Part shown: piece after piece, positions 26,488 through 50,866 of the stretch
Layout: each line of letters opens with the position of its first letter
Numbering within the stretch: position 1 is the first letter of the stretch
From: Cyanobacteria bacterium CYA
Lineage (GTDB): Bacteria > Planctomycetota > Phycisphaerae > Phycisphaerales > UBA1924
Assembly: GCA_008363215.1 (NCBI GenBank)
Contig: RHKP01000011.1
Span: forward strand, 124,001-188,000
Reading direction: 5' to 3'
Length of the DNA stretch: 64,000 nt
The notes under the pieces: generated by a model
What the model saw: the letters and a program-made list of their open reading frames with translations, nothing else
Databases searched by the model: none
Told to the model about the DNA's origin: nothing
Program-made: the position numbers and the translations under genes

Positions 26488-26536
26488 CCTGGTTTGCACT
26501 TCGTCTCCGCGTTCTCTGCGGCTCTCTGCGCTCACT
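26488..26536. repeat. Possible dispersed CTCTGCG-type repeat
   Basis: The stretch CTCCGCGTTCTCTGCGGC followed by TCTCTGCGCTCACTGCG resembles CTCTGCGTTCTCTGCG sequences that I remember from intergenic regions of many environmental bacteria. It lies between the PPK2 remnant and the EVE gene. Only one clear copy is in the window. Confidence 0.3.
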
Positions 26537-26548
26537 GCGTTCGGGCTT

Positions 26549-43012: not shown

Positions 43013-44836
43013 ATGGACGATTTCTGGATTTTGGCGCGACGGGTGCTGCGATACCGGGGGCTGCTGGCCGCTGCCGTGCTCGCGGCGATCGTGTCGGCCG
43101 GAGGACTGGGCGTCGGCATCGTCGGCGTGGGGCCCATCCTCGAAATCGTGCTTGAAGAGGGGAGATCGCTGCCCGAGATTGCCGCTCAGTTCAACCAGCA
43201 CGCGCTGGTGGGCGGGCGCATCCCGCAGGCGTGGATAGACGCGCTGCCCGCAGGAAAGTTCACCGCCGTGCTGTGGATCGTGCTGGCGCTGGGCGTTCTG
43301 ACGCTGGTCGGGGCTGCAGCCAACTTCTTCCATGCCTATTTCTCCCTGACGATTGTGGAACGGACCATTGCGCGCCTGCGCCGCGAACTGTTCGCCGGGG
43401 TCGTGCACCAGCCGCTGTGGACGCTGGCCAGAGGCGGCTCTTCGGATGCGATCAGCCGGATCGTCAACGACCCGCAAGCCCTGGGCATGGGCCTGACCGC
43501 ACTTCTGTCCAAGGCGACGGCCCAGTTGACCAAGGGGTTTGCGGCGCTGGTGGCTGCATTTGTCATCGACTGGCGGCTGACGCTGGTTTCGCTCATCGTG
43601 GCGCCGTTGCTGTACACGGTGATCCACAAACTGGGCAAGCGCATTCGGCGCGCCGCACGCGCGGCGCTGGTCAGTCAGGCGGAGTTGTACGGGTCGGCGG
43701 CCGAGGCGATCCAGGGTCTGCGCGTGGTCAAGGTGCACACCAACGAGCGCTATGAGTGCGGACGCTTTCATCGCATCAACAAGCGCGTGCTGGCCGAGTT
43801 GCTCCGCGTGCGCTACGCCCGTTCGCTGGCCAGCCCGCTGGTGGAGGTGCTGGCCATCTTCTCGCTGGGCGTGCTGAGTTTGGTGGCCATCAAGGCGATC
43901 GAGGACGGAGAACTCGACCCGTCAGACTTCATCCTGTCGCTCGGGGCGCTCGGGGTGGCCGGGGCCTCGCTCAAACCGCTGACGGGCCTGATGACCGACA
44001 TTCAACAGTCCGCCGGTGCGGCCGCCCGCATCCGGCAGATGCTGGGAGTCCAGTCCGAACAGCCCGACGCCAAGTCGCGTCCGCGCCTGCCACGGCATCA
44101 GCGATCGATCCGTTTCGAGAACGTGCGGATGCGGTACCCCAACACCGATCACCCGGCCATCGACGGCGTGAGCATCGAGATTCCGCACGGACAGACTGTC
44201 GCGTTCGTCGGACCCAACGGATGCGGGAAGACCAGCCTGTTGTCGCTGGTGCCGCGGCTGTTCGATCCTTGCGAAGGACGCGTGCTGGTGGACGACGTCG
44301 ACGTGAGCACGGTGAATCTTCGCTCGCTGCGCCAGCAGATCGGCGTGGTGACGCAGGAGACGGTGCTGTTCCGCCAGAGCGTGCGTGACAACATCGCGTA
44401 CGGAGCCGGCGGGATGAGCCAGGAGAGGATCATCGATGCGGCGAGGCGGGCGCACGCCCACGCGTTCATCGCCGCGCTGCCGCAGGGTTATGACACGGTG
44501 CTGGGCGATCAGGGATCGACGCTGTCGGGCGGGCAGCGGCAGCGCATCGCCATCGCGCGGGCCATCTTGCGCGACCCGGCGATCCTGATTCTCGACGAAG
44601 CGACGAGCATGATCGACGCCGAGAGTGAGTCGGCCATTTCGCAGGCCCTCGCGGGCTTCTCGTGCGGGCGGACGTGCCTGATCGTGGCGCACCGGCTGAG
44701 CACGGTGGTCAGCGCCGCCCGCATTGTGGTGATGGACGCCGGGCGCATAGTCGACCAGGGCACACACGCCGAGTTGATGAGTCGCTGCGGGTTGTATCAG
44801 CAACTCGTGCAGCACCAGACGCCGGGGCTTGGGTGA
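43013..44836 (+). CDS. MsbA-like ABC transporter, fused permease-ATPase
   Basis: This 607-residue half-transporter has an N-terminal membrane domain with about six helices over residues 1-335. The ATPase domain has Walker A FVGPNGCGKTS near 399, Q-loop VVTQETVLF, signature LSGGQRQR near 503, Walker B ILILDEATS near 525 and the H-loop VAHRLS. It is a type IV exporter of the lipid A/lipid-linked oligosaccharide group. The location beside nucleotide-sugar genes suggests export of a lipid-linked glycan, which is an inference. The gene is divergent from the WbpA-like gene across 139 bases. Confidence 0.92.
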   Translation: MDDFWILARRVLRYRGLLAAAVLAAIVSAGGLGVGIVGVGPILEIVLEEGRSLPEIAAQFNQHALVGGRIPQAWIDALPAGKFTAVLWIVLALGVLTLVGAAANFFHAYFSLTIVERTIARLRRELFAGVVHQPLWTLARGGSSDAISRIVNDPQALGMGLTALLSKATAQLTKGFAALVAAFVIDWRLTLVSLIVAPLLYTVIHKLGKRIRRAARAALVSQAELYGSAAEAIQGLRVVKVHTNERYECGRFHRINKRVLAELLRVRYARSLASPLVEVLAIFSLGVLSLVAIKAIEDGELDPSDFILSLGALGVAGASLKPLTGLMTDIQQSAGAAARIRQMLGVQSEQPDAKSRPRLPRHQRSIRFENVRMRYPNTDHPAIDGVSIEIPHGQTVAFVGPNGCGKTSLLSLVPRLFDPCEGRVLVDDVDVSTVNLRSLRQQIGVVTQETVLFRQSVRDNIAYGAGGMSQERIIDAARRAHAHAFIAALPQGYDTVLGDQGSTLSGGQRQRIAIARAILRDPAILILDEATSMIDAESESAISQALAGFSCGRTCLIVAHRLSTVVSAARIVVMDAGRIVDQGTHAELMSRCGLYQQLVQHQTPGLG

Positions 44837-44845
44837 GCGGGTGTC

Positions 44846-44995
44846 TTGAACCACAGAACGCTCGAAGTTTTGCAGAGTTGTGCGGAGTGGGGGGAATCGA
44901 CTTTGAGTTTCGCCCAGTGCCCGGTGCCCCCGTTGCACTCCATTCGTTCAAGACCCGTGTATGACTCGGTGCTCTCTGAGCGTTCTGTGGTTCAA
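44846..44995. repeat. 150-base element with 18-base perfect inverted ends
   Basis: TTGAACCACAGAACGCTC at 44846-44863 is perfectly inverted at 44978-44995. The 114 bases between contain no gene. Flanks GTGTC and AGGTC do not give a clear target duplication. It lies between convergent genes, and its right arm includes the stop of the Nudix gene. It may be a MITE-like element or a long-range bidirectional terminator. Confidence 0.7.
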
Positions 44996-45696
44996 AGGTC
45001 TTCCAATGATCCGAGCAGCGCGCAGGACGGCTCGATGAGGTCGATGGTCGTGAGCGCGTGCGACAGATCGCGCACGGGCAGCCAGCGGAAGCCGTCGTAT
45101 TCCCAGTTGAGTGCCGTCGGGTTGACCTTGCCTGAGATGTGAATCCGGAAGACGACGTCGACGCTGGGCGCCGCCGGGTCATGGCACAGCGCCAGGGCGC
45201 TTGCGTCAAGCCAGGGAATCGTCAATCCGAGTTCCTCTTCCACCTCTCGACGCAAGTGCTCGCGCAGGTCGTCGAGCGTGAGTTGGCAGACCCCAACGGG
45301 CGGCGCGTCAACCCCGCCCGACGGCGCCAGTTCCCAGCGGCCGGAATACAGCCGCGTGTCGCGCCCGCGCCGCGCCAGCAGCACGCAGCGCTCCGCACCC
45401 TGACCACAGGTCAGAAGTCCCGTCACGCCCAGTTGCGTTACGCCCGTGCGGACCTGCGGCTGCACGGCCAGGAACCGATACGGGTTCACGCACGCGGTGA
45501 TGACGGCCGTGCGTTCGTCAAAGCAGTGAAACGAGAGCGTGCGACCATCGAAGAGTCGGGGGTTGCCGGTCAGCATCTGCGTCCAGCGTTCCTGCACCGC
45601 TGCTTCGAGCCCGGGTGCCAGCGCAGGCGACTCGATGATCTCCACACGCAATCGCCCGGCATTGGCACCCAGTGGAAGCACCTGGCAGGCGATCAC
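44992..45696 (-). CDS. Nudix hydrolase
   Basis: This 234-residue protein has a Nudix domain in its second half. The Nudix box is present with an insertion: GGV... then LREHLRREVEEELGL, keeping the catalytic REVEEELG core. The first ~85 residues form an N-terminal part of unknown role. The family cleaves nucleoside diphosphates linked to another group; the substrate is not predictable. The start is GTG 45696, where homology to the long N-terminal form begins. It overlaps the frame of the upstream peptidase by 179 bases, probably because that frame is wrong near its end. The stop lies in an inverted repeat. Confidence 0.85.
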   Translation of the reverse strand: MIACQVLPLGANAGRLRVEIIESPALAPGLEAAVQERWTQMLTGNPRLFDGRTLSFHCFDERTAVITACVNPYRFLAVQPQVRTGVTQLGVTGLLTCGQGAERCVLLARRGRDTRLYSGRWELAPSGGVDAPPVGVCQLTLDDLREHLRREVEEELGLTIPWLDASALALCHDPAAPSVDVVFRIHISGKVNPTALNWEYDGFRWLPVRDLSHALTTIDLIEPSCALLGSLEDL

Positions 45697-47717: not shown

Positions 47718-50618
<2,901 letters not shown>

Positions 50619-50798: not shown

Positions 50799-50866
50799 TG
50801 ATGACCCCCGCTTCGTGCCTTCGTGTCCGCTCCCTTGCTGGCGCTTCGGGCTCGTAAACTCCGCTC
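50799..50866. repeat. Dispersed intergenic repeat, copy 2 (YEPxAPARE type)
   Basis: This is the second copy of the block at 17675-17736, with the same order of GATGACC, CCCCGCTTCG, GCTCCCT and CGGGCTC elements. Read on the minus strand it spells YEPEAPARE. Like copy 1 it lies in a convergent gap, here between gcvP and the glucanase gene. The rest of the 267-base gap holds no gene. Confidence 0.6.

Follow-up and report, generated by a model that had tools for sequence, protein, structure and literature searches.

A small intergenic inverted-repeat element and its probable kinship with array-bounded GxxExxY nuclease elements

Bacterial MITEs are short, non-coding, intergenic sequences with terminal inverted repeats, and they have longer gene-bearing relatives with ends of the same style. 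In the REP/BIME systems, palindromic repeats are dispersed between genes and the gene of the enzyme, a RAYT (HUH) transposase, is located elsewhere. The ends of insertion sequences normally consist of one conserved repeat, not of tandem arrays specific to each element. Homing endonucleases of the PD-(D/E)XK type and Rpn-type recombination-promoting nucleases, which belong to the same superfamily as the GxxExxY proteins, also serve DNA mobility, but none of them is known to have inverted tandem arrays of its own, or derivatives lacking the gene, of the type described here.

The family considered in this work shares all of the MITE features listed above. It differs from them in that its ends are tandem arrays which vary from element to element, no target duplication was seen, and the partner gene encodes a PD-(D/E)XK nuclease, which as far as tested is not a known transposase. 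It also differs from the REP/BIME-RAYT systems, since it has no short palindromic REP unit and its enzyme has a different fold. The protein of the full-length members is represented by the TIGR04256/PF13366 (PDDEXK_3) model, which covers the protein only. GxxExxY is a very common family. Our search of the open-licence literature found no description of array-GxxExxY elements or of their gene-less derivatives, so this kind of element is apparently undescribed, although absence from print is unproven. A term search of a review of prokaryotic MITEs (PMC10969869) had no match. In other papers, the array turns up by chance in a B. fragilis primer (PMC3090145), a GxxExxY domain call adjoins a CRISPR reverse transcriptase (PMC8934634), and TAACTGA and other heptamer repeats are treated (PMC4679880).

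The window, i.e. the whole 64-kb stretch of DNA that was analysed, contains a 150-bp element (44846-44995), which is real and MITE-like and probably a relic. We consider it likely that this sequence belongs, as a small and decayed non-autonomous member, to a family of GxxExxY-nuclease elements with inward tandem arrays, and it is this family that makes it important. Its 18-nt arms (44846-44863 and 44978-44995) are 100% complementary (18/18) and are separated by a gap of 114 nt. The perfect 18-base terminal inverted repeats described in the initial annotation are thus real; they form the only perfect 18-nt inverted repeat of the window (gap up to 400), and none of 20 simulated windows (first-order Markov) contained one. 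Both strands of 44846-44995 fold far more strongly than their shuffles (z -3.5 and -4.2). A search of 4227 Rfam families returned no match at 44700-45150 up to E 10.

The left terminal repeat (44846-44863, plus strand, TTGAACCACAGAACGCTC), identified by arm complementarity, 18-mer search and simulations, is a box A end. It is followed by an inner array of box B type with a period of ~10 (CGAAGTTTTGCAGAGTTGTGCGGAGTGGGG, 44863-44892, plus strand), which in local alignments resembles the terminal array of the GxxExxY element on contig C37 of the same genome and the inner array of locus L081 (scores 25 and 28, reached by 0 of 300 shuffles). The right array (TTGAACCACAGAACGCTCAGAGAGCACCGAG, 44965-44995, minus strand) is of box A type and in local alignments resembles L080 and L081 from the window's own genome (scores 33 and 29, equalled by 0 of 300 shuffles). 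Comparison of the arms shows that its outer part, the right terminal repeat (44978-44995, minus strand), is the perfect inverted copy of the left one. The element is a mixture with inward-facing tandem arrays, in which both outermost 18 bp are of box A and continue as a box B array on the left and as a box A array on the right. Both arms carry the unusual AACGCTC, and both ends contain TTGA. The interior (44893-44964) is non-coding, a six-frame profile search found no match to a GxxExxY remnant in the element at E 1, and the element was classed as a non-autonomous relative because it comprises 150 bp without such a remnant. Quasi-repeats such as ATTTGAGATTTGTGATTTGAGATTTGA and GCACCGGGCACTGGGC occupy window positions 44905-44945 and the interiors of L078, L081 and L085. 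Elsewhere in the window, one decayed array in this style (GAACGCAGTGAGCGCAGAGAGCCGCAGAGAACGCGGAG, 26506-26546, reverse strand) apparently lies in another intergenic gap, and CACGAAGGCACGAAG (50811-50827, reverse strand), past a gene ending at 50618, is possibly another array relic.

By gene context, the element is flanked by two convergent genes, encoding an ABC transporter (43013-44836, plus strand) and a Nudix protein (44992-45696, minus strand). The initial annotation proposed that the Nudix gene takes its last codons from the right end and that insertion may have replaced the original gene end. The first statement is wrong, as only the stop codon (44992-44994, minus strand, TGA inside TTGAACC) is within the element, in the right terminal repeat. 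The Nudix orthologues of both congeners stop at a similar place, and the second statement is not supported. No Nudix relatives were found among the genome contigs. The orthologous ABC/Nudix junction consists of 398 bp of other sequence in congener G033 and of ~96 bp in congener G352, and the element is absent from both. A small non-autonomous element, as suggested earlier, is still the best reading. The block as a whole is single-copy, with only its ends recurring elsewhere in diverged form.

A 190-bp query including the element had one match in its own genome. The search for further copies of the terminal 18-mer recommended at the outset returned the two arms as the only exact matches, the nearest others having three mismatches; with up to three mismatches, three other places were recovered in addition to the arms, and one of these (C23:44836) is a real relative. 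Both the 190-bp block and the 18-mer were abandoned as copy probes, since besides the arms they detected diverged relatives only, and it was shorter patterns that revealed the family. The pattern GAACCACAGA had 11 matches compared to 2 for the reversed pattern, and the copies on contigs C23 and C8 read AACCACAGAGNNCACAGAGNN..., which is box A with a period of 9, and after it comes box B with a period of 10, as TTCACCACGGAGTTTCACGGAGTTGCGCGGAG or a sequence close to it. With up to two mismatches, TGAACCACAGAGNNCACAGAG was present in 12 of 61 family genomes, including five matches in the window's own genome and nine in G033 of the same genus, against one match overall for the reversed control. 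When 294 genomes of the phylum were scanned, 51 contained a three-unit array pattern, whose control had one match. The inward-facing tandem arrays TTGAACCACAGAGNNCACAGAGNN..., which constitute the end family of the window element, are dispersed beyond the phylum: an exact scan of named species genomes revealed at least 118 stretches, which come from many other phyla. The 80 matches listed include Proteobacteria, Acidobacteria, Chloroflexi, Verrucomicrobia, Planctomycetota, Bacteroidota and others. Many of these stretches come from metagenome bins, where stray contigs are possible, but the matches listed also include the isolates Chitiniphilus shinanonensis, Andreprevotia chitinilytica and Paraglaciecola algarum. 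Other copies in this and related genomes, the absence of which would have spoken against a mobile element, are thus lacking in the same genome as the exact 18-mer and present at the family level in that genome, in congeners and in many phyla.

The arrays have a 7-bp core (CACAGAG or a relative, e.g. CACGGAG, CGCAGAG or CGCGAAG) repeated every 8-10 bp. In the 118 stretches from the named-species scan, neighbouring arrays less than 500 bp apart were mostly oriented inward (88 inward, 7 outward, 3 tandem), as were those of 60 family loci (26, 2 and 3, respectively). The distinct inward pairs collected numbered 108, with a span of 68-487 bp (median 115). TTGA is found at exactly one end in 79 of these 108 elements (Fisher p 6e-7) and at both ends, as in the window element, in 8; therefore, the two ends are not equivalent, and such distinguishable ends would be expected for a directional reaction. 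In a test for pairing-driven covariation of the variable NN positions, the arms agreed better than shuffled ones at NN1 and at a number of outer positions, to which host composition may contribute as the shuffles pooled genomes; position -2 was anti-correlated. Unlike classical MITEs, short copies have mostly unrelated interiors even inside one genome (exceptions, L210/L234/L258 and L218/L226); copies with common interiors were found in Mariprofundus, Thiosymbion and two Rhodospirillales bins. In Chitiniphilus shinanonensis (L164, L190, L207, L208) the inverted repeat extends outward by ~12-19 nt, and both arms of this outer stem change together between copies (CCCAAATCTTGA or CCCACACCTTGA). 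Four Andreprevotia chitinilytica loci (L189, L217, L236, L180) have a REP-like palindrome, GTAGGAGCGAGCTTGCTCGCGAT...ATCGCGAGCAAGCTCGCTCCTAC, nested inside the array pair.

The gene context of 82 pairs could be classified: the flanking genes are in tandem for 59, convergent for 15 and divergent for 8 (14 others were unclear, 9 were far from a gene, and the remainder was unscored). For comparison, the gaps between genes in the genome-contig loci that measured 60 bp or more comprised 176 tandem, 31 convergent and 49 divergent cases. These counts are only approximate, because the gene caller overlooked the Nudix gene of the window. They bear on the possibility that the element is a bidirectional transcription terminator, a long hairpin shared by two convergent genes that stops transcription in both directions. 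The convergent neighbours, the strong hairpin on both strands and the A- and T-rich tracts flanking the arms of some low-GC copies elsewhere are compatible with this explanation, which we nevertheless regard as unlikely: only 15 of the 82 pairs are convergent, one relative is located inside the sucC-sucD gene pair, no terminator-like site (a short GC-rich hairpin with a T-run) was found at 44400-45400, and the 114-nt loop is, as already pointed out in the initial annotation, too long for an ordinary terminator. It would also leave the link to GxxExxY unexplained. A rule placing the boxes at 3' ends, in the manner of terminators, was dropped because boxes occur at both edges of intergenic regions, and also antisense before start codons.

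Elements L162 and L167 (446 and 487 bp) each contain one complete small gene, whose products match TIGR04256 (GxxExxY) with 149.1 and 144.4 bits (cut-off 35) and PF13366 with 144 and 141.6 bits (cut-off 22). When all 108 elements were searched in six frames with the profile, GxxExxY was intact in all seven elements of at least 420 bp and in none of the 101 shorter ones, and one decayed copy was detected (L256). The full-length members are ~430-550 bp long, and the single protein that they encode is GxxExxY. The same array-GxxExxY-array architecture was found in Bernardetia and in Bacteroides finegoldii, where the element is situated between radA and the gene of an FAD-dependent protein. A further GxxExxY gene, located between fabD and fabG of Sphingomonas parapaucimobilis (L338, 2513-2941), has short inverted ends of the sequence CACGCGAAG. 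GxxExxY relatives are present in several phyla; phages contained no GxxExxY match to L167, and viral contigs contained none.

Proteins matching PF13366 occur in 60 of the 61 family genomes, with 60 strong matches (at least 100 bits) in 31 genomes and weaker ones besides. We analyzed 48 of the 60 strong loci, comprising the best match of each of 30 genomes and 18 further loci picked with their flanks unread; the own-genome copy L392 was run alongside the latter. The upstream flank of each gene was compared with the reverse complement of its downstream flank, using mixed pairs as the control. The median score of the 30 loci was 41.5 versus 19 for mixed pairs (p 1.4e-12), with 20 of the 30 above the mixed 95th percentile, and the second sample had 16 of 18 above it. 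One locus (L291) scored low in the first test, where the match boundary fell inside the array, and profile boundaries gave 60. Altogether, matching inverted arrays were found at 36 of the 48 strong loci, each with its own variant. By comparison, 20 weaker, divergent PF13366 loci had a median of 17 versus 16 (p 0.26), 2 of 20 exceeded their own 95th percentile, and real arrays were present at one only, C37:14414 in the window's own genome. Among other genes of 300-700 bp from six genomes, 1 of 63 scored above 35, with unrelated sequence.

The array cores of these elements vary (CACAGAG, CACGGAG, CGCAGAG, CGCGAAG, CACAAAG or CACAGATG, with a spacing of ~8-11), and the two ends agree. Across genomes, array similarity tracks GxxExxY protein similarity (Mantel r 0.37, 0 of 2000 permutations; 42 of 55 elements, those with an arm score of at least 36), and arrays of coding elements are not more alike within a genome (0.23) than between genomes (0.27). 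In the 61 genomes, a strong GxxExxY copy was present in 8 of 12 box-A-positive and 23 of 49 box-A-negative genomes, a link which is loose partly because other array types were uncounted; genome G043 has 11 box matches and no strong copy.

These data also bear on the proposal that the element is a MITE of an ordinary insertion sequence with a DDE or HUH transposase and that GxxExxY is a passenger. Terminal inverted repeats, small size and intergenic sites would fit this proposal. It is improbable, however, given that GxxExxY is the sole gene seen inside family elements (7 of 7 long members), that the array variants track its protein, and that the ends are element-specific tandem arrays unlike the usual ends of insertion sequences. 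The partner, for which the initial annotation suggested a transposase with matching ends, appears as far as tested to be the GxxExxY nuclease gene, which has array ends of the same style.

Seven GxxExxY sequences share invariant E32 (of GxxExxY), D72, E82-x-K84, Q96-xxx-Y100, N113-F114 and R125, and in 37 proteins E32, D72, E82, K84, Q96, N113, F114 and R125 are 100% conserved. D...ExK...QxxxY is the motif set of RecB/Cas4/AddB-type nucleases, and GxxExxY of the full-length members has an intact RecB/Cas4-like PD-(D/E)XK motif set. The predicted structure has a mean pLDDT of 90.8. Foldseek returned nothing for this model at E 0.001, the best matches being SSO0001 (E 5e-3), a Cas4 family protein, and lambda exonuclease (E 9e-3), with I-Bth0305I also listed at E 0.6. 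Alignment of SSO0001 with the model gave a VIA Z of 9.2 and an rmsd of 5.3 over 101 residues. No solved structure matched by sequence below E 0.2. The comparison of the predicted structure supports a nuclease fold, and nothing more specific.

Several gene-less copies share their arrays with a coding copy. A 28-base array found in 4 of 414 loci, all from genome G010, is present in coding L295 and in non-coding L097, L101 and L102, and a CACCGAG-type array is confined to genome G019, where it occurs in one coding (L037/L303) and one non-coding element (L025/L137), each represented by two overlapping stretches. In the window's own genome, a GxxExxY ORF of 169 aa with matching arrays is located on C37 between sucC and sucD (gene names read from the sequence). 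Its arrays match the inner arrays of non-coding L079, L081, L085 and L086 from this genome and G033 with 83-94% identity. The ends of the C37 element are of box B, matching the left inner array of the window element and not its outermost 18 bp (box A), and no box-A-ended coding copy was found in the genus. The C37 copy is probably decaying and may be dead, because its protein lacks the Q and Y of QxxxY as well as the F of NF (APLLTH for AQ..TY, NS for NF). The sucC-sucD gap is 549 bp with the GxxExxY gene in this genome. In G033 it is 270 bp and contains remnants of the arrays and of the GxxExxY N-terminus, which is decayed (E 1.2e-7), and in G352 it is 55 bp with neither. The same site is therefore seen gene-bearing, deleted and empty, as would be expected if an insertion later underwent internal deletion, although the flanks are too diverged to place the insertion point.

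Array, GxxExxY gene and array form a unit with matching ends, and gene-less forms with the same ends exist. We infer that these elements move. Inspection of the flanks of array copies by eye recognised no target-site duplication, and no base-exact empty site was found. In the proposed mechanism, GxxExxY, alone or with host repair, would recognise both arrays, possibly upon folding of the long inverted repeat in single-stranded DNA, and would spread the array-bounded unit into gaps between genes. Short members would arise through internal deletion and were possibly moved in trans, and the identity of the two arms might be maintained through fold-back copying or through co-selection with the nuclease. 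That the element is instead a conserved, non-mobile site for regulation or RNA binding, acquired independently at the ends of genes, is very improbable: box cores are kept between two species in like neighbourhoods with differing interiors (L081/L086, L080/L085) and the 9-nt array resembles the target of a repeat protein, but occurrence is patchy among genomes, with presence and absence among congeners, arms plus interior are common to copies in some genomes, and matched arms surround a single nuclease gene.

A broader proposal is that bacteria harbour a new class of mobile elements with GxxExxY as their only enzyme: this Cas4/RecB-like PD-(D/E)XK nuclease would recognise element-specific arrays, copy the unit into intergenic gaps and leave gene-less hairpins, among them the one in the window. 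In our opinion this is about as probable as its opposite. If correct, it would assign a role to the GxxExxY family, with the end arrays of its elements as a substrate open to testing, and would add a new type of enzyme to the short list of those serving DNA mobility. A class of pan-bacterial intergenic repeats would also be explained, as GxxExxY elements would account for the arrays of CACAGAG, CGCGAAG and CACAGATG type across many phyla. Genome G010 also contains another dispersed repeat, a palindrome of ~105 bp (L092, ~1197-1303), which has numerous matches there on either strand.
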